Below, in pieces: positions 23,486 through 51,274 of a DNA stretch of 64,000 bases. Location of the stretch: assembly GCA_958295465.1 (NCBI GenBank), contig OY282353.1, positions 3,649,001 through 3,713,000 on the forward strand, in the 5' to 3' direction. Origin of the DNA: an uncultured Gammaproteobacteria bacterium (lineage in GTDB: Bacteria > Pseudomonadota > Gammaproteobacteria > HK1). The notes below the pieces were generated by a model that was not told the DNA's origin, searched no databases, and was given only the letters and a program-made list of their open reading frames with translations. How positions within the stretch are numbered: the first letter of the stretch is position 1; each line of letters begins with the position of its first letter. Made by a program: the position numbers and the translations under genes.

Positions 23486-25636
23486 TCACGGGGCCGGGAC
23501 GTGGATGATCAGGTTGCCGGCGTCATCGACGGCAGCGCGAAAGCCGGGCGGCAGCACGGTTGTCGTATCGAGCTGCTCGATGACCGCCGGTCCTTCCAGG
23601 GCGTGGCCTGGGCCGAGGGATTCGCGCCGGAGGATCGGGGTCTCGTGGCGCCCGTCCGGGAACAGGACGTCGCGCCGCTCCACAGCCTCCCGGCCGGCGC
23701 CGTGCCCCTCGGGCGGCGGCGCGTGTGCTCCATTTGCCGGTTGTCCGGCTTCGTGCCCGGCGTCGCGCCTGCCGGCCGCTTGCACACCCCTGGATCTCCC
23801 GGCCTCGTCCCTCGCGCCTCCCCCGCCGGCCAGCGCCGCGAGCGTGATGCCGGGGCGGCGCCCGAGCACCGCCGTGTGCAGGTTCACCAGTACCGCACGG
23901 ATCTCCGGAAGCTCGACCTCGAAGCGTTTCCAGTAGGCCCGCTCGAAGAGTGCTTGCAGCTCGTCGAGGGCCGGCGTCGCCGTCGCCAGCGGCACGCCGA
24001 GGATGTGGCTCTGCCCCTGGAACTGCATGTCCGCGGCGTGGATTACGCGCACCGAATCGAAGGGGACGCGCTCGCGCGCGAGCATCTCGCTTCCGTGCCG
24101 GATCTGCCCGGCGAGGATCTCGTGGACGGTCTCGACGTCCAGGGCGGCCAGCGGCGTGTTGACCGTGCGCACATAGTCGTGGCGCAGATCCGCGACCATG
24201 CACCCGAGCGCGTTCGTGATTCCGGGACGGGCAGGGACGATCACCTTGGGGATCCCCAGCTCCTGCGCCAACTCGGCGGCGTGCAGCGGGCCGGCGCCAC
24301 CGAACGCGAACAGCGCGAAGTCGCGCGGATCGTGTCCGCGCGCGAGCGACACCATGCGCAACGCCCCCGCCATGCGGTCGTTGGCGATGCGCAGCACCGC
24401 CGCCGCGGCCTCCTCCGCTCCGATCCCGAGCACCGCGCCGATCTGCACCTCGAACCGCGTTGCGATCGCGTCGAGCGGAACCGGCCGCTCCACCGACAGC
24501 AGCGTGCGGGGGTTGAGCCGGCCGAGAAGGAGGTTGGCGTCGGTGATGGTGACCCGCTCGCCGCCGCGGCCGAAGCAGATCGGCCCTGGCGAGGCGCCGG
24601 CGCTCTCCGGCCCCACCTGCACGAGCCCCGCCTCGTTGACGAAGGCGATGGAGCCGCCGCCCGCGCCGATGCTGTGCACGTCCACCATCGGCACGTGGAT
24701 GGGCACCGCGTATTCCACCTCCAGCTCCGAGCTGACCGCCGGCACGCCTTCGCGGATGAGTCCCACGTCGCAGCTCGTGCCGCCCATGTCGCAGGTGATC
24801 ACGTTCTCGAAGCCCGCTTCGGCCGCGGTGCGGGCGGCGGCGATCACGCCCGAGGCGGGGCCGGACATGACCGTGTTCACGGCGCTGTCCGCGGCCACCC
24901 GTGCCGAGACGGTGCCGCCGTTGCCCCGCATGACCAGGACGTCGCGCCGGTACGAGCGGGTCGCGAGCTCCTCGACCAGGCGCGAGAGGTAGCGCGCGAG
25001 GATCGGCTGCACGCAGGCGTTGACCGCGGCGGCGGTGCCGCGTTCGTACTCGCGGTATTCGGAGAGGATCTCGTGGCCGGCGGTGATGTATTCGTTGGGC
25101 CAGAGCGCCGTCACGATCCGCTTCGCCCGCCGCTCGTGCTCGGGGTTGCGGTAGGCGTGCAGGAAGTGGATCACCACCGATTCGCATCCCCGCGCGAGCA
25201 GCTCGTGCGCCGTATGGGCCACCGCCTCCTCGTCCAGGGGGACCACCACGCGGCCCTCCGCGTCCATGCGTTCGGCCACTTCCAGGCGCAGTTCGCGGGG
25301 GATGAGGGGCTCGAACCATCCGGTCAGCCCGTAGGGTTTCGGCCGGGTGCGGCGGCCCAGCTCCAGCACGTCGCGGAACCCGCGGGTGGTGATCAGGCCG
25401 GTCGGCGCGAGCTTGCGCTCCAGCAGGGCGTTGGTGGTGGTGGTGGTGCCGTGCACCAGCAGGTCCAGGGACGCGAGATCCACCCCGGCCCGGTCCAGCG
25501 CTTCCAGCACCCCGAACGCCTGGTTGCCGGTGGTGGTCGGGACCTTGGCGAGCCGTACCTCGCCCGATGATTCGTCCAGGTACAGCAGATCGGTGAACGT
25601 ACCGCCCACGTCCACGCCGGCGAGACGGTGGCTCAT
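23486..25636 (-). CDS. hyuA: Hydantoinase/oxoprolinase A subunit (HyuA)
   Basis: 716 residues, full length. The actin-like ATPase phosphate loop opens the protein (GVDVGGTFTDLLYLDE); VHGTTTTTNALLERK, MRGNGGTVSA, TCDMGGTSCDVGLI and HSIGAGGGSIA follow in normal family order. HyuA proteins pair with HyuB for ATP-dependent opening of hydantoin-like rings or 5-oxoproline. No hyuB gene is visible in the window. A low-complexity Gly/Ala/Arg segment near residues 610-640 (AGGGGARDEAGRSRG) looks like one more local expansion. Starts at ATG 25636 next to a 116-bp repeat array. Confidence 0.88.
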   Translation of the reverse strand: MSHRLAGVDVGGTFTDLLYLDESSGEVRLAKVPTTTGNQAFGVLEALDRAGVDLASLDLLVHGTTTTTNALLERKLAPTGLITTRGFRDVLELGRRTRPKPYGLTGWFEPLIPRELRLEVAERMDAEGRVVVPLDEEAVAHTAHELLARGCESVVIHFLHAYRNPEHERRAKRIVTALWPNEYITAGHEILSEYREYERGTAAAVNACVQPILARYLSRLVEELATRSYRRDVLVMRGNGGTVSARVAADSAVNTVMSGPASGVIAAARTAAEAGFENVITCDMGGTSCDVGLIREGVPAVSSELEVEYAVPIHVPMVDVHSIGAGGGSIAFVNEAGLVQVGPESAGASPGPICFGRGGERVTITDANLLLGRLNPRTLLSVERPVPLDAIATRFEVQIGAVLGIGAEEAAAAVLRIANDRMAGALRMVSLARGHDPRDFALFAFGGAGPLHAAELAQELGIPKVIVPARPGITNALGCMVADLRHDYVRTVNTPLAALDVETVHEILAGQIRHGSEMLARERVPFDSVRVIHAADMQFQGQSHILGVPLATATPALDELQALFERAYWKRFEVELPEIRAVLVNLHTAVLGRRPGITLAALAGGGGARDEAGRSRGVQAAGRRDAGHEAGQPANGAHAPPPEGHGAGREAVERRDVLFPDGRHETPILRRESLGPGHALEGPAVIEQLDTTTVLPPGFRAAVDDAGNLIIHVPAP

Positions 25637-25644
25637 GGGCGTGC

Positions 25645-26062
25645 CTTGGTGATGGCCGGCCGGTGTACGCGGGCCGGCGGCGCTTCGGGTGTCGGGGCCG
25701 CCGGGGCGGGCAGGTCGGGCACGAGCCGATGTCCGGAACGGTGGTTCATGCGAGGGTCCCGGCCACCATGGCCGGCCGGTGGGTGGGGGCCGGTGGCGCT
25801 TCGGGTGCCGGGATCGCCGGGGCGGGCAGGTCGGGCACGGACCGATGTCCGGAACGGTGGTTCATGCGAGGGTCCCGGCCACCATGGCCGATCGGTGTAC
25901 GCGGGCCGGCGGCGCTTCGGGTGCCGGGGCCGCCGGGGCGGGCAGGTCGGGCACGGACCGATGTCCGGAACGGTGGTTCATGCGAGGGTCCCGGCCACCA
26001 TGGCCGATCGGTGTACGCGGGCCGGCGGCGCTTCGGGTGCCGGGGCCGCCAGGCCGGGCATG
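25645..26062. repeat. 116-bp tandem array of the UPF0280/hyuA junction (~3.6 copies)
   Basis: The phrase ATGGCCG recurs at 25652, 25768, 25884 and 26000, and GTCCGGAACG at 25731, 25847 and 25963, always 116 bp apart. Read on the minus strand each unit contains the last ~27 codons of the UPF0280 gene with its stop (RSAMVAGTLA, then TGA) followed by ATGAACCACCGT, which resembles the hyuA start ATGAGCCACCGT. The array thus repeats a gene-gene junction. Confidence 0.85.
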
Positions 26063-26952
26063 TCGAGCACGCGCCAGCGTCCCTGCACGGTGAGCGCTGC
26101 CCCTTCGATGACGTCCCGGTCCCGCAGCGCGCCGGCCTTGCGAGCCCCGGCAGCGAGCGCCGCGCCGATCGTCTCCGCGTCCAGCTCGGGCACCGCCACC
26201 GTGACCAGGCGGTCGCCGAGGTCGCTGTCTTCGTCGAGGGTGCGGGCCGGCACGCGGCGGATGCCGGGATGATCGGCGTCCACCGCGTTCGCGATCAGGG
26301 TGGCGGCGGCGTCGGCCAGCGCGGCGCTGCGCGCGAGCACGGTGACCGCATCCGCGATCCCGAGCGAGTGCGATCGGCCCTGCCATCCGCTGGTCGCCAC
26401 GCCGCGCACGGCGGAATCGTATGCGATCTCGACGCGCGCGCGGGGAGCCGCCTCGCGCAACGACGGCACCACGCCGACCGACAGGCGCGCTCCGGGGCCG
26501 AGGTACAGGGCGACGTCTCCGCCGTTGTTCACGTACGCCCGCTCGATCCCCGGCCGCGCCGCGAGCACCGCCACCGCCTCGTCGGCCACCGCCCCGGCCA
26601 CCGCCGCCATCGGAGTGGCGAACCCGCTCGTGCAGGCCCGTACCGCGGCGGTCATGCGACGCGCGATCGTTCCGGCCGGCGGCGCAAGGCGTGCGGACTC
26701 GGGGCTGCGCAGGCGCGGCAGCTCCTCGACCAGCGCGCCGAGCCAGCCGGGGAAGGCGTCGATCAGTGCGCGGTATGCGCTCTCGACCGCCCTCGCGGCA
26801 CCATCGGCGTAAACGACCAGGTTGATCGGCCCGTGCTGCAGGAAGAGGCGGTCGCCGTCCAGCCGTGACGCGGTCGCGCCGTCGGCGAGCGCGGATACGT
26901 GCGAGCCGGCTCGTGCTGCCGCATCGGCGCCGGCGCTGCTGATGAGTTCCAC
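25978..26952 (-). CDS. UPF0280 (ApbE-like fold) family protein
   Basis: 324 residues from a GTG start at 26952 (GTGGAACTCATCAGC). The body matches UPF0280, proteins with an ApbE-like fold: LFLQHGPINLVVYAD, SGFATPMAAVAGAVADEAV, ERAYVNNGGDVALYL and the C-terminal ANAVDADHPGIRRVPA. The biochemical role is not known, but family members frequently neighbour 6-hydroxynicotinate-reductase-like and amidohydrolase genes. The last ~25 residues (APAPEAPPARVHRSAMVAGTLA) come from the 116-bp repeat unit and are probably not native. Transcribed toward hyuA. Confidence 0.75.
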   Translation of the reverse strand: MELISSAGADAAARAGSHVSALADGATASRLDGDRLFLQHGPINLVVYADGAARAVESAYRALIDAFPGWLGALVEELPRLRSPESARLAPPAGTIARRMTAAVRACTSGFATPMAAVAGAVADEAVAVLAARPGIERAYVNNGGDVALYLGPGARLSVGVVPSLREAAPRARVEIAYDSAVRGVATSGWQGRSHSLGIADAVTVLARSAALADAAATLIANAVDADHPGIRRVPARTLDEDSDLGDRLVTVAVPELDAETIGAALAAGARKAGALRDRDVIEGAALTVQGRWRVLDMPGLAAPAPEAPPARVHRSAMVAGTLA

Positions 26953-26959
26953 CGTGAAC

Positions 26960-27525
26960 CGCCCCCCTCATTTCGCACGCGACCGCACCACCGCCCCGAT
27001 CGTGTACGGCAAGCTGCGCATGATGAGTTCCACCGTGAACCGTTCCTCGTCATTTCGTACACGACTGCACCACCACACCGATCGTGTACGGCAGGCCGCG
27101 CACGGTGCAACGCCGGGAGCGGAGGTCCGCGTCGAGATGCCGGGCACGGGTGAGGGCGCCTTCTCCGAATTTTGCATACGACCGCACCACCACACCGATC
27201 GTGTACGGCAGGCCGCGCACGGTGCAATGCCTGGAGCGGAGGTCCGCGTCGAGATGCCGGGCACGGGCGAGGACGCCCTCCGAATTTCGCACGCGACCGC
27301 ACCACCGCCCCGATCGTGTACGGCCAGCCGCGCACGGTTCAACGCCTGGAGCGGAGGTCCGCGTCGAGATGCCGGGCACGGGCGAGGACGCCTTCTCCGA
27401 ATTTCGCACGCGACCGCACCACCGCCCCGATCGTGTACGGCAGGCCGCGCACGGTTCAACGCCGGGGGCGGAGGTCCGCGTCGAGGTGCCGGGCACGGGT
27501 GAGGGCGCCCTCCCCGAAGCGCTCG
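26960..27525. repeat. 115-117-bp tandem array of the dinB 3' end (~4.5 copies)
   Basis: GTGTACGG recurs at 27002, 27084, 27201, 27316 and 27433 (spacings 82, 117, 115, 117). On the minus strand each full unit contains the dinB C-terminal codons (FGEGALTRARHLDADLR) and then a stretch reading VRGLPYTIGAVVRSRAK. The last, shortened copies also carry GTGGAACTCATC, which is the start of the UPF0280 gene, so the array links two gene ends. Confidence 0.85.
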
Positions 27526-28652
27526 TGCACCACGTCGAGGGTCCGGTCGAGCCGCTCGTCGTGCTCCCGGCGCGGGGCGTCGAACAGATCGAGCTGATGG
27601 ATGTGGCCGCCGTCCCCCTCCCGGAGGTCGAACGCGGCGACGCCCACGAGGCGCACCGGCGCGCCGAGGTCGAACTCGCGCAGCAACGACTCCGCCGCTT
27701 CGACGATCGGCCGCGTGGCGTGGGTCGCGCCGGGGAGGACGGTTTGCCGCGTATGCAGCCGGAAATCCGACGTGCGCAGCTTTACCCGGACCCCCGCCGC
27801 CTTCAGTCCCTCGCCGCGCAGCCGGCGCGCGACGGTGTCCGCGGCCCGCAGCAGCCAGGGGCGGATGGCGGCCTCCCCGATGACGTCCGCGTCCAGCGTG
27901 TTCTCCGAGCCGATGCTCTTCGCGTCCCGCTCCGGGATCACCGCACGGTCGTCGCGTCCGTGTGCGAGGGCGTGCACGTGGGCGCCGAGGCTGCCCAGCC
28001 AGCGCTCCAGGGTATCGAGCGGGGTCGCCGCGACGTCGCCGATGGTGTCCAGCCCCCGCGCCTTGAGCCGCGAGCGCGTGCGCGGCCCCACCCCCCAGAG
28101 CCGATCGATCGGCAATGGATGGAGAAAGTCGATCACCTCGTCCGGGCCGATCACGGTCATTCCGTCGGGCTTGCGGTGATCGCTGGCGACCTTCGCGACG
28201 TACTTGGTGGTGGAGGCTCCGACCGAGACGGTGAGCTTCGTGGCCTCGAAGACCGCGCGGCGCACCGCCTCGCCCATCGCCCGCGGCTCGCCGAACAACG
28301 CCCCGCATCCGGTCATCTCCACGAACGCCTCGTCGAGGCTCAGGGGTTCGACGAGCGGCGAGAAGTTGCCGAGGGTGCGCATCACCGTCCTCGAGACCGC
28401 CTGGTAGCGCTCGAAGCGGGGCGGGAGCACGATCGCGTGCGGACAGCGCCGCCGCGCGACGGCCATGGGCATCGCGCTGCCGACCCCGAACGGGCGCGCC
28501 TCGTAGCTCGCCGTGGACACCACCCCGCGCGGTCCCGTCCCTCCGATCAGCAGCGCCTTGCCGCGCAGCTCCGGCCGGTCGAGCTGCTCGACCGCCGCGT
28601 AGAATGCGTCCATGTCGGCGTGCAGGACGATGCGTGGCCAGGCCGGGGTCAT
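27456..28652 (-). CDS. dinB: DNA polymerase IV (Y family)
   Basis: 398 residues from ATG 28652. The palm carries HADMDAFYAAVEQ and PLSLDEAFVE, supplying the three catalytic acids; KYVAKVASDHRKPDG, helix-hairpin-helix GVGPRTRSRLKARGLDTIGD and the little-finger domain follow. It performs error-prone translesion and stress-induced synthesis. The very end (GEGALTRARHLDADLRPRR) is the unit amplified in the adjacent array; no clear beta-clamp motif is left at the terminus, although HQLDLF sits ~30 residues earlier and may serve. No LexA box seen. Confidence 0.9.
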   Translation of the reverse strand: MTPAWPRIVLHADMDAFYAAVEQLDRPELRGKALLIGGTGPRGVVSTASYEARPFGVGSAMPMAVARRRCPHAIVLPPRFERYQAVSRTVMRTLGNFSPLVEPLSLDEAFVEMTGCGALFGEPRAMGEAVRRAVFEATKLTVSVGASTTKYVAKVASDHRKPDGMTVIGPDEVIDFLHPLPIDRLWGVGPRTRSRLKARGLDTIGDVAATPLDTLERWLGSLGAHVHALAHGRDDRAVIPERDAKSIGSENTLDADVIGEAAIRPWLLRAADTVARRLRGEGLKAAGVRVKLRTSDFRLHTRQTVLPGATHATRPIVEAAESLLREFDLGAPVRLVGVAAFDLREGDGGHIHQLDLFDAPRREHDERLDRTLDVVHERFGEGALTRARHLDADLRPRR

Positions 28653-28671
28653 GATCCGAGGGTACCGGCAC

Positions 28672-28730
28672 GCCGGGCCGCGGCGCGAGGGCTCACCGCC
28701 CCGCCACCGGTTTCCACGGCCAGGGGCTCG
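28672..28730 (-). pseudogene. Scrap of the 6-hydroxynicotinate-reductase-like 3' end
   Basis: About 45 bp here match the stop-proximal part of the gene at 30927 (coding PWPWKPV) and also the copy at 29870-29940. Copies at 28672 and 29870 share an extra GCCGCGGCGCGAGGGCTCA beyond the gene end, so they derive from one another rather than independently from the intact gene. Confidence 0.6.
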
Positions 28731-28858
28731 CCGTGTCGCTGCGGATGATTGAGAGAGCGGCCCGGTGACGAAGGCGCGGTCCCTCTTGAAAGCCCCGCCG
28801 TCCCGGACGGCGAAGGACCCGCCCGCGAGCTCTTCGTCCGGCGTTCGTTTCGCATCCA

Positions 28859-29686: not shown

Positions 29687-29899
29687 CGAAGTGCTTCTCG
29701 CATTGCTTATTGGAGTGTGAATCGTGGCACAAAATGTCATGCACCCGCCATCCCGCCTTGAGATTCATAGAAGGCGCCGTGGTAGCGGGTGAGGTGGGCG
29801 CGCGGTCGTGGAACGAGGGCGGCGAGTCGAGCGATGAAATCGAATGAGGGGGGCGCCGGCACCGTATCCGCCCGGCGTGCCGGGCCGCGGCGCGAGGGC
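29687..29899. other. Antitoxin upstream region
   Basis: Lower-GC 210 bp containing the presumed TA promoter (CAATAAGCAATG on the minus strand near 29700) and then the border of the duplicated reductase fragment. No gene seen. Confidence 0.35.
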
Positions 29900-30056
29900 T
29901 CAGCGCTGCGTCACCGGCTTCCACGGCCAGGGGTTCGCGCCGTTCCAGGGACGCACGTCGGCCTCCCCGCCGGTTTCCGGAAGCACCTCCGAGAACGGGA
30001 TCGCGTGGTCCAGGTGCCCGCCGAGCGCCTCGTAGTCGGCGAGCGCCAGCGTGAAG
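29900..30056 (-). pseudogene. Duplicated C-terminus of the 6-hydroxynicotinate-reductase-like gene
   Basis: Encodes FTLALADYEALGGHLDHA through NPWPWKPV, almost identical to the last 50 codons of the gene at 30927-32540, then ends after TQR. There is no start or Fe-S domain. It sits immediately behind the broken RES-like frame, so its arrival probably truncated that gene. Confidence 0.8.
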
Positions 30057-30104: not shown

Positions 30105-30239
30105 CGGGGTCCACTTCTGTACGGCAATGGTGTCAAGCGGGCGGTCGCCGTGCTTGCGGTGGATCAGGCGATACATCCGCTCGACCCGGACTGCCCGAAG
30201 CCGCTTTCGGATGCGGGCCGGATCGTAGCCGGTGTTCAC
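30105..30239 (-). pseudogene. Possible truncated RES-type toxin
   Basis: From a GTG at 30239 overlapping the antitoxin stop by 4 bp, reads NTGYDPARIRKRLRAV then YRLIHRKHGDRPLDT. The YR-x2-H-x2-H opening and the position directly after a ParS/MbcA-like antitoxin suggest the start of a RES-domain toxin. All catalytic residues beyond the first strand are lost, and the frame runs into foreign sequence (IAVQKWTPIIG). Confidence 0.4.
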
Positions 30240-30883
30240 GCAAAGTCGCCCTGAACATCTCCTTCGACGGCGGCCGTCACCCGATCGATCTCTCCTCTGC
30301 GCAGCAAAGCGATCGGTTTTGCCCCGTCAAGAGAAGGGCGCGGGGTCGTCAGCCAGCCCCACGCCGCATGGCCGTCGTCGAAGTATGGAATGATCCTGTC
30401 GAGTCCTTTCAGCGGACGACCGTGTCGATCGAGCTGTGCGGCCGGGAACACATGTCCGCGTTTCGCTCCCTGCCACCCGATGATCCTGCCCCGCTTCAGC
30501 CAGTCGTGAACTGACTGACGGGTCTTGAGCCCGACCCGGGCGGCAAGCTCGTCCGAGGTCAACAGCTTTCCCTCCCCGCCAGGCCGGGTTCGCACCAGGA
30601 TCCGCCGATTGGCTTCCTTGGCGTCAACAACCACCGGCGCTTCCGCGTCCCCGATGATCTCGGCTTCCTGCTCGTCTTCGTCCCTTGCGGACTTCACGGA
30701 GAGTGAATCCGCCGCGACGGCCAAGGCCGACCGCACGGCATCCGGATGCGCCACCAATACAGCCACTGCGCGGGCGCTCAGGCCCTCGGCGGCGTCATGC
30801 ACCAAGGCTGTCAGTTCCCCGATGTTCCGGTTTTTCACGAGCATCACAATCTCCTCTCGCGATGGCGCACTCTCGTCGGGCAA
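30236..30883 (-). CDS. ParS/MbcA-like (Xre/RES type) antitoxin, apparently orphaned
   Basis: 215 residues, a plausible length for the family. A helix-turn-helix-like segment (DELAARVGLKTRQSVHDWLK) is followed by RGHVFPAAQLDRHGRPLKGL and the C-terminal toxin-binding DUF2384 domain (AAWGWLTTPRPSLDGAKPIA then LLRRGE). In this family the antitoxin neutralises a RES toxin that degrades NAD+. Here the partner downstream is broken, so the antitoxin may survive as an orphan regulator. An Ala-rich N-terminal helix region precedes the HTH. Confidence 0.72.
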   Translation of the reverse strand: MPDESAPSREEIVMLVKNRNIGELTALVHDAAEGLSARAVAVLVAHPDAVRSALAVAADSLSVKSARDEDEQEAEIIGDAEAPVVVDAKEANRRILVRTRPGGEGKLLTSDELAARVGLKTRQSVHDWLKRGRIIGWQGAKRGHVFPAAQLDRHGRPLKGLDRIIPYFDDGHAAWGWLTTPRPSLDGAKPIALLRRGEIDRVTAAVEGDVQGDFA

Positions 30884-30926
30884 GTCTTGTCTATTCAGTC
30901 TATTTCGTCAAGTACCAATCCATTCC

Positions 30927-32540
30927 TCACCGCCCCGCCACCGGCTTCCACGGCCAGGGGTTCGCGCCGTTCCAGGGTCGCACGTCGGCCTCCCCGCCGG
31001 TTTCCGGAAGCACCTCCGAGAACGGGATCGCGTGGTCCAGGTGCCCACCGAGCGCCTCGTAGTCGGCGAGCGCCAGCGTGAATTCGATCGGCGCCACGAT
31101 GGCCGGGGTCGGCACGTAGCCGAAGGCGTTGGCGGGCAGGCGGGTGACGTCGACCAGCACGGTGATGCCGCCCCCCGGCCAGACGTAGACCGGCGCGCCG
31201 CCCATGGTCACCCGCGCCGCCGAGGACTTGATGGAATCGGTCAGCCGGATGGGGTTCTCGGTGACCCCGGCCCGCAACGATCCACCCGCCCCGGCCATGA
31301 ACAGCACCGAGCACAGCGACGGCTCGCAGTTCTCCCCGATGCGCTCGACCACCCGGCGCACCGCATCCGGGACCGGCGCGGGCTGCAAGGTCTTCCGGTC
31401 CTCGTCGAGGAGGCAGTACAGGCTGTCCTCGCCGGTGGTGGTGGTCAGCAGCACCCGCATCCCCGGCCATGCCACCGCCGGGTCGATGCGCCGGATGATG
31501 GACAGCGGCTCGGTCACGTCCGTCCCGCCCCAGCCGGTGCCGGGGCGCGCCACCTGGAAGTAGCGGCCCGGTGTGGACTTGCGTCCCCGCACCCGGACGC
31601 CGGCCGGCGCCATGCCCAGACAGGCCCCGGCCTGGTGCTCGGTCAGCACCCCGGTGATGTGGTCGTCCACCACGATCACCTCGTCCACGTGCCCGTGCCA
31701 CTGCCGGGCGAACATGCCGATGGTCGCCGAGCCGCAGCCGGCCCTCATGCGCCGCTCCTCGACGCCGTTCACCAGCGGCGCGCGCCCGGCCTGCGCCACC
31801 ACCGTGGCCCCGCCGTCGATGGCCAGCTCCACCGCCTCGCGGTTGCACAGCGCGAGCAGCGTCTCGCAGGTGATCCGCCCGGCCTTGCGGGTGCCGCCGG
31901 TGAGCTGGTTCACCCCGCCGATGGCGAGCATCTGCGAGCCGTATTCGGCGGTGGTGACGTGCCCGACCGGCTCGCCCTCGGCGCGGATGGTGGCGCATTC
32001 GGGGCCGAGATGGCGGTCGGTGTCGATTTTCACCTTCGCGCCGCAGTAGGAGAAGATGCCCTCGGAGACTACGGTGACCGTGTCCACGCCTTCGTACTCG
32101 GCGGCGACGATGAACGGTGCCGGCTTGTAGTCGGGGTAGGTGGTGCCCGAGCCGATGCCGGTGACGAAGGTGCGGTCGCTGGTGAAGGCCCTGCCGTCCC
32201 AGTCGGCGATGGCCTCGCCCGCGAAGGGCACCACCGGGGCGCCCGCGTCGAGCGCCCGCTCGGTCAGCACCAGGGGATCGGTGCGCACCAGGCTGCCGTT
32301 CTCGTTGGCGTAGCGGTCGCAGGCGCCGAGCTTTCCGGGCTTGATGCGGCACAGGATGGGGCAGGCGTCGCAGCGCACGATCCCGGATTCCTCGCGGGCG
32401 CCGAACTTGCCGGTGCGGTCGGTGCGAGCGGTGGTCGGAGCGGAGCGGTCGGTGAGGCCAGTGGATGGGTTGGTGCCGGTGAGGCCGGGATCGCCGCGGT
32501 GGGTACGGCCGTCGCGTCCGGTCGCCGGGGTTTCAGCCAC
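30927..32540 (-). CDS. 6-hydroxynicotinate reductase-like Fe-S protein
   Basis: 537 residues from GTG 32540 (VAETPATGRDGR). A low-complexity Thr/Arg/Gly N-terminal tail (about 45 residues) precedes a cysteine cluster C-x2-C-x3-C-x9-C (CDACPILC, then GACDRY) that should bind [4Fe-4S]. The rest (TYPDYKPAPFIV, GIFSYCGAKVKIDTDRH, CGSATIGMFARQWHGHVDEV, FMAGAGGSLRAG, WPGGGITVLVDVTR) matches proteins annotated as 6-hydroxynicotinate reductase, the ferredoxin-dependent ring-reducing enzyme of Eubacterium barkeri. That function is by family only. The GTG lies inside a duplicated 3' scrap of the upstream molybdenum-hydroxylase gene, showing the two were once directly coupled. Confidence 0.75.
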   Translation of the reverse strand: MAETPATGRDGRTHRGDPGLTGTNPSTGLTDRSAPTTARTDRTGKFGAREESGIVRCDACPILCRIKPGKLGACDRYANENGSLVRTDPLVLTERALDAGAPVVPFAGEAIADWDGRAFTSDRTFVTGIGSGTTYPDYKPAPFIVAAEYEGVDTVTVVSEGIFSYCGAKVKIDTDRHLGPECATIRAEGEPVGHVTTAEYGSQMLAIGGVNQLTGGTRKAGRITCETLLALCNREAVELAIDGGATVVAQAGRAPLVNGVEERRMRAGCGSATIGMFARQWHGHVDEVIVVDDHITGVLTEHQAGACLGMAPAGVRVRGRKSTPGRYFQVARPGTGWGGTDVTEPLSIIRRIDPAVAWPGMRVLLTTTTGEDSLYCLLDEDRKTLQPAPVPDAVRRVVERIGENCEPSLCSVLFMAGAGGSLRAGVTENPIRLTDSIKSSAARVTMGGAPVYVWPGGGITVLVDVTRLPANAFGYVPTPAIVAPIEFTLALADYEALGGHLDHAIPFSEVLPETGGEADVRPWNGANPWPWKPVAGR

Positions 32541-48395: not shown

Positions 48396-51274
48396 TTTGG
48401 ATCCTCCACGTGTAGTGCCTCCGATTTATCGGACAGAGAGTTGTAGGTGAAGCTGCCGTTCCAAATTTGGCCTTCGCCGGGGACGAACTGGCCGGTGCGG
48501 ATCGCGGCGATGGCGTAATCAGGCAGCTCCCGTATCGCTATGCAGACTTCTCCCTCGATGGGAATACGGTGATCCCTGAAAGCGAAATCCAGGTTGTCGA
48601 AGTCGTACTGCTCGCGATGGCTAGGAAGGTCGTTCATGTCAACCGGGTCCAGGTGGAGGAAGAACATTGGTTCAGCATCCTCCGGGCTGCATTGGTCCTT
48701 GGCGTAGATGAGGCGGTTTTCAACGAGATACACATCCCAGTCGGAGCGGATGATCGGCCGGCCACCACCCAGCAGCCCCGACACCCAATCGCTTACTGAC
48801 ATTGATTCAACCCTGACCGGCGGGAGTGCATTGTAGGTGAAGCTGCCGTTCCAAATTTGGCCTTCGCCGGGGACGAACTGGCCGGTGCGGATCGCGGCGA
48901 TGGCGTAATCAGGCAGCTCCCGTATCGCTATGCAGACTTCTCCCTCGATGGGAATACGGTGATCCCTGAAAGCGAAGTCCAGGTTGTCGAAGTCGTACTG
49001 CTCGCGATGGCTAGGAAGGTCGTTCATGTCAACCGGGTCCAGGTGGAGGAAGAACATTGGTTCAGCATCCTCCGGGCTGCATTGGTCCTTGGCGTAGATG
49101 AGGCGGTTTTCAACGAGATACACATCCCAGTCGGAGCGGATGATCGGCCGGCCACCACCCAGCAGCCCCGACACCCAATCGCTTACTGACATTGATTCAA
49201 CCCTGACCGGCGGGAGTGCATTGTGGGGCAGCACGCGCACGACCACACACAACCCCGTTTGCGTTTGCGTCCAGGAATCGACGGCTGTTTCATCTCCCTG
49301 GCCGACCCAGGACCACACTGCCAGCTCGTCCGGCATGCAATCTCTGACGAACGCCTGTGCCATCCGTCCGTCCACAATCAGCCCGACGCCATCCGACCGG
49401 TGGTCGAAGTGCGGTGCCATCCGCTGCCAGAACCACTCGGAACGATTGGTCCCGCCTGATGACATGTCCGGCGGCTCGGGGGTCAGGAGCCTGAATTGAC
49501 GTTTGTGCGGTGCGTTCGGTCTTTTATGGGGATAGGGCGGGCCTTCGAACAGGATCACGCCCACGCTCGGGCGCTCTCGACGTTTTCGAACCAGGTAATC
49601 CCGTACTGCCGGCAGAACGTGGGCCTCGGTTCCTTCCAGAGTGGCCCAGATGTTGGCGAAACGGGTGATCCCGTATCGCGGGTAGAACGTGACCTCGGTT
49701 CCTTCCCTTTGGGCGCGCAGGTAGCCGTAGGAATTGGCCAGACCGTCCAGGTTCACCACCGGATAGCGAGAGAAATACCCGATGACGCCGGCGTCCCACG
49801 ACCCGACCACGCTGTCCTCGGGCAGCACACGGTTCATCACCTGCACACCCATATGAGAATTGTCCCCCCAGGCGCGGCGGGTTGACTCGCCGGAACGGTC
49901 AACAAACTGGAACGGCCCCGTGAAGTCCGCCTTTGTAAACAGGAAAGCCGTTCCGACAACGACGATGCCCATGCGGAGGAGGTTGGCTGCCTGGGGCGAC
50001 CTCGGGTCGAGGAAACGGCGGATGAAGTGGATGGCGACATAGCACCTTGCGGGAATGACAAGCGTCTTCAACAGGTATGCCGGAACGAAGTACCAGACAT
50101 CACTCCCCCAGTTGGGATGCACCGTGAGAACGGTCTGTGCGAACTTGGCGAGGTGGCCGACCGCCAGGCCGAACACGCACACCAGGAAGGCCAACAGCAG
50201 CCGGTCTGTCCGGCCCCTGGAACGGCGGGTGAACCACCAGACCAGAACGACGTAGGCGCAGATCTCCAGCGCGACCAGCAGCTCGTAGCCGAAGGCGGGA
50301 ATCCGCAGTACGTCCCGGAAGTTCTGAACGAAGCGGTATCCGCCTTCCTGCTCCCATAACCATTGCGACCACATCAGCTTGGTCGCGCCGCTCACCGGCG
50401 TCACGCCCCCGAAGACGATACCGTTGTATGCGAAGTACACGAGGATGCCGGCGACCGCGCCCAGCAGTGGCGCGACGGTGTGCATCGCGAGCACGGAACA
50501 GGCCAACCCCCTCTCCGGGGTGCCGAGGTCCTCCTCTCCCTCGACGGGAAAGGGGGAGGGTGATTCCCGCCTCGACCACTCGATCAGGCACAGCGCGGCG
50601 GTTGCCGCCAAGGATATGGCGATGTACTCCAGGCGCACCCAGGGCAGGGCGAAAGCCACCGCGGCCAGCGGCCACTTCCACCGAGCCGGGCTTCGCGCGA
50701 AGAGGCAGGCGGTCAGAATGAACAGGCTCAGCATGAACAGCGCCGCCGCCGCTTCCATCCCCAGAAGCAGCGCGCGTTGCTGGTAGAGCATCGGCAGCGC
50801 GGCGAACATCAGAACCCACGGCAGGCACGCCAGCCGGGCGGCCGCGGTGACGAGCGCCACGCCGCCGGCGACGAGCATGATCTCGAACGCCTTGATGGCG
50901 AACAGCGCCGCTTCCTTGTCGAATATCCAGTAGAACGGCGTGATCAGAAACAGCCAGAGGGGGTGGTATCCGTTGGTGCGCGTGATGCCGCCGTCGAAGG
51001 TGGAGAACTTCCCATCGGCCAGGTTGCGGGCGATCTGGAAGTAATAGAAGGCGTCGTCGGTGCTCACGTCGCGGATCAGGTTGATGAGATCGAAGCGGGC
51101 GAGCATGTGCCAGGCGAACCCGGCCCCGTAGGCCAGGATGCCCGCGATGAACAGGACGAACAGCGCGTTGCGCGGCCGGGAAGGCAGAGTCCCCCCAAAT
51201 TCAGGCGGCGGGCGACCAGAGCGCACCAGCGACCCACCGGCGCGGCGCTGTTTACGGTGCGGCGTTCCCGTCAT
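48392..51274 (-). CDS. GT-C membrane glycosyltransferase with duplicated C-terminal domain
   Basis: About 960 residues from ATG 51274, overlapping the upstream gene by 23 bp (the frame is open to 51424). The membrane region has [20 protein letters not shown] and [17 protein letters not shown], a GT-C acidic-loop signature, and is a paralogue of the next gene upstream. A large periplasmic part ([30 protein letters not shown]) precedes two consecutive copies of the shared C-terminal domain encoded by a 390-bp near-perfect duplication. Probably transfers a sugar from a polyprenyl-phosphate donor in the periplasm. Confidence 0.75.
48441..49220. repeat. 390-bp in-frame tandem duplication encoding a C-terminal domain
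   Basis: 48441-48830 and 48831-49220 differ at a single base that I can find (GCGAAATCC versus GCGAAGTCC). Each encodes 130 residues beginning within [20 protein letters not shown] and ending in [10 protein letters not shown]. The duplication is very recent or maintained by conversion. Confidence 0.92.

Follow-up and report, generated by a model that had tools for sequence, protein, structure and literature searches.

An uncultured gammaproteobacterium carries, between its UPF0280 gene and hyuA, a tandem array whose spare units form a chain of short coupled ORFs without a break, with an NTGA-type stop/start overlap (ATGA) at all four hops. Other arrays of local origin and unrelated sequence sit at close same-strand junctions of the same genome, and all of them, the first included, probably arose by ordinary tandem duplication of local sequence, with selection for translational coupling acting as a filter.

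Genomes and gene order

The window, i.e., the whole stretch of 64,000 nucleotides analyzed, spans positions 3,649,001 to 3,713,000 of the single contig (C1, 5.68 Mb) that makes up the genome, hereafter G000. The sister genome G002 (OY282378.1, also from an uncultured gammaproteobacterium) is a separate single-contig assembly, and its UPF0280 protein is 96% identical. Over the 0.4 Mb compared, one 26-kb block aligns between the two and no more, and we compared them through single junctions, not long synteny blocks. The remaining relatives that share these genes are MAGs from gammaproteobacteria, one of which carries the label Thiotrichales. On the minus strand, the genes follow the order 543-aa gene (which matched no family), toxin-antitoxin-like genes, dinB, UPF0280 (PRK04334) and hyuA (Table 1).

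Table 1. Genes, arrays and relay ORFs of the dinB-UPF0280-hyuA region (window positions)
Feature	Positions	Strand	Basis and remarks
hyuA-like gene (hydantoinase/oxoprolinase A), downstream of A1	23,486-25,636	-	Pfam PF01968/PF05378; ATG at 25,636; ATGA overlap with relay ORF 3
Relay ORF 3, 38 codons	25,633-25,749	-	Stop overlaps hyuA ATG (-4); unit of 113 bp, still 2 mod 3
Relay ORF 2, 39 codons	25,746-25,865	-	-4 overlap with relay ORF 1
Relay ORF 1, 39 codons	25,862-25,981	-	ATG overlaps UPF0280 stop (-4)
Array A1, 116-bp units: UPF0280 C-terminal tail, ATGA and first ~12 nt of hyuA	25,652-26,071	-	TRF; units read; one unit fewer in sister
UPF0280 / PRK04334 (ApbE-like), tail is the template of A1	25,978-26,952	-	NCBIfam NF003322, E=1.6e-104; Pfam ApbE below cut-off
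82-bp repeat, two copies, with one spare UPF0280 start (GTGGAACTCATCA)	26,940-27,102	-	TRF, sequence
Array A2, four units of ~117 bp: dinB tail, TGA (lost in 2/3 spare copies) and ~90 nt	27,052-27,518	-	TRF, sequence; chain broken
dinB (DNA polymerase IV family), template of A2	27,456-28,652	-	Pfam IMS, IMS_C; gene call

Two arrays of different fate

Tandem repeat analysis (TRF) recovered both arrays noticed in the first-pass annotation, and they are indeed unrelated in sequence to each other. In A1 (116 bp x 3.6, 92% matches), the unit read in gene orientation consists of the UPF0280 tail ending in GTGGCCGGGACCCTCGC, the ATGA and then ACCACCGT, while hyuA proper begins ATGAGCCACCGT. Its limits are a CACCGT within UPF0280 and the CACCGT of hyuA, and successive copies of this motif are 117, 116, 116 and 113 bp apart. 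Since 116 equals 3x39-1, the frame opened by the ATG of each ATGA crosses the copy of the UPF0280 tail that follows and is closed by the subsequent ATGA, so that each spare unit is a 38-39-codon relay ORF whose start sits in the ATGA ending the previous one. The three ATGA junctions described earlier as spare copies ahead of hyuA are thus present and more than spare, each being in frame with the next, and the path runs from UPF0280 through ORFs of 39, 39 and 38 codons to hyuA. The chain is unbroken both in G000 (units of 116, 116 and 113 bp) and in G002 (116 and 113 bp, relays of 39 and 38 codons), and the copy number differs (3.6 against 2.7 units, i.e., three against two spare units). The A1 sequence has a single match, its own locus, across the whole 5.68-Mb genome, and a search of 2 Mb of G000 found no distant copies of the spacer.

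The variable sites among the relay copies of A1 are spread evenly over the three codon positions (7/8/7), which indicates that the frame is kept and the peptide is not. The relay ORFs suggest that coupling has been maintained, rather than the expression of hyuA tuned. The even spread of the variable sites also bears on the idea that small proteins with a function are made from the mini-ORFs. In favor of it, these are open frames contiguous with operons, but the lack of codon-position bias, together with a relay of unrelated sequence and length at the same junction in the relative G004, makes it hardly probable at all.

A2 behaves differently. TRF describes it as 117 bp x 4.0 (91%), the units actually measuring 117, 115 and 117 bp, and the 82-bp repeat that overlaps it as x 2.0 (86%), the A2 region as a whole extending over 26,940-27,518. 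The earlier statement that every unit carries the 3' end of the upstream gene with its stop holds for A1 and fails for A2, where the stop is retained by one spare dinB tail and has changed from TGA to TGC in the other two. Likewise, the start of UPF0280 is copied, as had been said of the last units of this array, only it lies within the 82-bp repeat and not in the 117-bp unit. We found no relay chain at this junction in G000 or in any other species examined. Under the explanation that we favor, A2, located at a junction uncoupled in every species examined, would be drifting freely.

The nearly equal unit size of the two arrays (116 and ~117 bp), which had been given significance, is probably a coincidence: the A2 units are not constant, and the periods of other G000 arrays are spread, mostly from ~40 to 230 bp. 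Equal size as the mark of one shared process was ruled out by how widely array periods vary genome-wide. An assembly artefact is unlikely, given that the copies have diverged by 8-10% and that the separate assembly of G002 has A1 with its own copy number and A2 with four units, as in G000.

There are other repeats in the window. Direct repeats of 157 bp (96%), derived from the 3' end of the 543-aa gene, lie at 29,899-30,055 and 30,926-31,082 and enclose a gene for a Xre/MbcA/ParS-like antitoxin (30,236-30,883); G002 has one copy and no insert. Repeats of 67 bp (88%; 28,665-28,731 and 29,872-29,938) surround a stretch that lies between dinB and the 543-aa gene and carries genes for a PemK-like toxin and a ribbon-helix-helix protein; in a relative (L012), about 15 bp separate dinB from the 543-aa gene. 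These duplications flanking two insertions of toxin-antitoxin type, upstream of the arrays, hint at a possible capture by staggered breaks or end joining. A 390-bp tandem duplication (99%) at 48,441-49,224 has related sequences near 46.3 and 51.3 kb.

Spare gene ends concentrate at close junctions

We surveyed 2.0 Mb of G000, 0.4 Mb of G002, 0.4 Mb of G005 (another genus of the family) and 1.3 Mb of control loci dominated by alphaproteobacteria. Genes were called with a self-trained, home-made hexamer caller, applied to 2.0 of the 5.68 Mb of G000, and some starts are uncertain; one such case is the locus at 372,368, where the chain was not seen in relatives. We counted as a spare tail any copy of the 3' end of a gene lying no more than 400 bp downstream of it (local score at least 24). 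Spare tails were found for 35 of 1081 genes in G000 and 5 of 220 in G002, against 0/245 in G005 and 0/791 in the alphaproteobacterial set (0/1036 for the pooled controls); searches against reversed targets gave none. The excess is real and, among the sets compared, seen in this genus only.

Arrays with a period that is not a multiple of three were never found inside called genes, and 31 of 38 are in same-strand gaps. They are densest at overlapping junctions, with 28 per 100 kb, and thin out to about 0.5 per 100 kb where the gap exceeds 600 bp, the gaps being binned by collapsed length, i.e., with the extra copies removed; a null based on uncollapsed gaps overstated the enrichment because long "gaps" probably hold missed genes. 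Spare tails accompany 17 of 128 near-overlapping same-strand pairs and 25 of 657 elsewhere (Fisher p=1e-4; odds ratio 3.9). Arrays are thus concentrated around gene termini, most of all where two genes on the same strand lie close together, the point on which the first-pass annotation had asked for a check. Its premise that gene ends are not copied by ordinary repeats is not supported, since a unit longer than the spacer must take in a terminus, and repeat density is about equal on the start-side and stop-side flanks.

The annotation had raised the idea of a new process that preferentially copies these junctions. Duplication there could be actively favored, for example by fork arrest or breaks at sites of coupled translation, or by positive selection on the expression ratio of the two genes. 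The 3.9-fold enrichment of spare tails at near-overlapping junctions, the number of units spanning stop and start in short gaps (10 observed, 3.4 expected) and the different copy numbers in sister species are all consistent with such a process or advantage. However, the breakpoints resemble ordinary microhomology, repeat density is symmetric about starts and stops, and the enrichment may also derive from longer retention of constrained relays or from unannotated genes diluting the long gaps. We consider this reading unlikely, and a junction-aimed process seems unneeded when the A1 unit is bounded by CACCGT microhomologies and frame-compatible survival would explain most of the pattern. Selection acting purely as a filter, however, predicts fewer duplications at coupled junctions, and yet they are ~3-4x commoner per pair, so that a formation bias or longer retention has to be added; the surplus may stem from biased formation, from positive selection or from constrained relays being retained for longer.

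Most arrays at close junctions keep the frame

Spare tails were present in 58 genes over 2.4 Mb, 48 of them with a same-strand neighbor. We defined a chain as a series of ORFs each starting from -11 to +9 nt from the previous stop, the last one ending at the downstream start, and applied it to the 19 scanned junctions that collapse to a stop/start distance of 12 nt or less once the extra copies are removed. Seven of these collapse to -4, as does A1, three to -1, two to -8 and the rest to between +1 and +8. The chain was unbroken at 18 of the 19, against 4.65 in versions of the same sequences frame-shifted by deleting 1 or 2 nt per unit, a control internal to each locus for a set that was itself defined after the pattern had been seen in A1. 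Even at a chance of 1/3 per locus, the binomial P is about 3e-8, and with the sister's A1 added, the count becomes 19/20. Arrays on other same-strand junctions had a chain in 8 of 25 cases, near the background of unaffected same-strand gaps of 60-400 bp (76/384). A period of 2 mod 3 as the sole criterion was dropped in favor of the chain test because junctions at +1 or -8 need another residue and several steps may sum.

These counts also bear on neutrality. Neutral intergenic minisatellites would include gene ends simply because their units outsize the spacer, and continuity of frame would be due to chance in a G+C-rich, stop-poor genome. Repeats do occur at starts as often as at stops, A2 has no chain, and a G+C content of 67% often leaves single frames open. 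Nevertheless, the frame-shifted versions of the same sequences fall far below 18/19, arrays at uncoupled junctions show no such effect (8/25), and several orthologous expansions of differing lengths are again frame-compatible. This explanation is already disfavored, and we regard it as quite unlikely.

The same junctions in related species

Direct overlaps of -4 or -1 are found in relatives at several of the expanded junctions. At locus 3,745,792, G001 and G003 have a direct GTGA, G002 an expansion of 3x64-4 bp (three units), G000 one of 5x64-4 bp (five units) and G004 a separate 92-bp relay, and every expansion carries a chain. At 1,248,784, between a response regulator and a histidine kinase, the direct ATGA of G001 corresponds to relays of 8, 15, 38 and 35 codons in G003, G004, G002 and G000, respectively. 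At 1,530,231, where the genes of G002, G003 and G004 overlap directly by -4, G000 has an expansion of 209 bp that holds a 70-codon relay; at 3,825,886, G003 has a direct TGATG and both G002 and G000 a 134-bp relay. Locus 4,705,815 is at +1 in G003, with expansions of 100 bp in G002 and 2x112 bp in G000 (1 mod 3, the residue required at a +1 junction). At 3,541,635, the overlap is -4 in G003, while G002 has an in-frame step of 81 bp, G000 has steps of 81+81+80 bp and G004 no chain; the coded test scored G002 as lacking a chain since the downstream gene's own frame stays open to the -4 start. At 4,523,745, the G000 relay exceeds that of G002 by 75 bp, a multiple of three, and the orthologous junction in G004 has no chain.

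The A1 junction has a relay across the spacer in all four species, that of G004 being a 132-codon ORF; in two more distant relatives, no tandem array was found at the A1 or A2 junctions. Some relatives are multi-contig assemblies in which repeats are possibly collapsed, but differences at several loci are seen even between G000 and G002, each of them a single contig. Almost every derived state is frame-compatible, and the frame-keeping expansions differ by species. The direct overlap (-4 or -1), being found in outgroups, is likely the ancestral state at several loci.

Relays beyond the detected duplications

In gaps of 90-160 bp, strict relays are in general excess in G000, with 29 in 98 (9.8 expected) and still 23 in 90 (7.7 expected) once pairs with spare tails are removed; the alphaproteobacterial controls show some excess too, at 30-90 bp (8 versus 1.5). 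Over 2 Mb, we counted 63 relays, roughly half of which (30/63) could be due to chance by the frame-shifted controls. Most are at -4 at both ends, 21 have a local duplicate, about nine have several dispersed copies, and most others match nothing elsewhere in the 2 Mb. The relay at G000:4,523,513-4,523,744 (L191:3513-3744) consists of two copies of a dispersed repeat with 72 distant matches in 2 Mb, and the one at 424,864-425,011 (locus 425,012; 39 distant matches) holds a stretch similar to it.

These last two loci are in line with a mobile, dispersed element inserting at NTGA junctions with its own ORF, and the -4 spacing at both ends of most relays is like that of the mycobacterial MIRUs (PMC12548453). 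They are, however, a minority: A1 is unique in its genome, 21 of the 63 relays are built from the ends of the neighboring genes, and most of the remainder have no match, which makes a mobile origin highly improbable. Pairs overlapping by -4 amount to 48 of 642 same-strand pairs in G000 (7.5%), 14 of 159 in G005 and 172 of 560 in the alphaproteobacterial sample (31%). A broader proposal, which we put forward only tentatively, is that operon evolution throughout the genus has involved the repeated expansion of overlapping junctions into relay chains, by duplication or insertion and more often at coupled junctions, with relays partly replacing direct overlaps.

A model for the relay chains

The explanation that we favor, local duplication filtered by selection for coupling, could work as follows. 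Duplications, which are common in this genus, would arise at short microhomologies and expand through slippage or unequal crossing-over. One that covers a gene junction leaves both genes intact and would therefore survive. At coupled junctions (4- or 1-nt overlap), only duplications of a length that places spare start and spare stop in one frame would persist. Each extra unit would then act as a short relay ORF, taking the ribosome that terminates upstream and passing it to the next overlapping start, and by this handing on, coupling would be maintained across the spacer. Selection may act on coupling itself or against untranslated, Rho-sensitive mRNA.

If so, comparing these junctions offers evidence from nature that selection can act on translational coupling itself, with various lengths and sequences at one junction nearly all keeping the ribosome path open. 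The natural variants with 0, 1, 2, 3 and 5 units could serve to gauge how far coupling can be relayed. There is also a risk for annotation, as relay mini-ORFs may be missed or misnamed and nearby gene starts misplaced.

Comparison with known systems

Overlapping genes are coupled by termination-reinitiation at -4 (NTGA) or -1 (TGATG). A1 copies precisely such an ATGA, and the junctions of the survey are at -4, -1 and, in a few cases, -8; the difference is that here repeated copies of the overlap form a series of short ORFs separating the two genes. As in minisatellites or VNTRs born by local tandem duplication, A1 consists of polymorphic, head-to-tail local copies with microhomology at the ends. 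At rnc-fpg1 of Mycobacterium tuberculosis, repeats replace a spacer of a few base pairs between two operon genes, and their length correlates with fpg1 expression (PMC2734929), so that tuning by such arrays is conceivable. That array begins 40 bp past the stop, and the part of the account available to us (PMC2734929) reports no coupling chain. In a literature judged by title and abstract, with subscription papers mostly outside coverage, we found no description of locally born relay ORFs.

The closest parallel is with MIRUs, which are said to insert at start codons, with an ORF coupled at -4 spacing and a likely minimal impact on expression (PMC12548453). Three 77-bp units lie in senX3-regX3 of strain H37Rv (PMC4213456), and G000:1,248,684-1,248,783 (L152:8684-8783), where four species have four differing relay ORFs, has a similar position. 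In both systems, repeats arranged in tandem and variable in copy number lie between genes of operons, a two-component pair among them, and the unit has an ORF coupled at -4; the relays of A1 overlap the adjacent stop and start by -4 (all ATGA), which is not so in A2, and copy number differs between close relatives (three against two spare units of A1 in G000 and G002). However, MIRUs are mycobacterial units of 40-100 bp, whereas those described here measure 116 and 117 bp, with a length that varies by locus, and occur in gammaproteobacteria. MIRUs form one named family over 41 places (PMC2734929), while A1 has no homologous units dispersed in its genome and each array is built locally, unrelated to the others. 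The comparison suggests that no mobile family is needed for MIRU-like intercistronic ORFs, which may originate in any local duplication.
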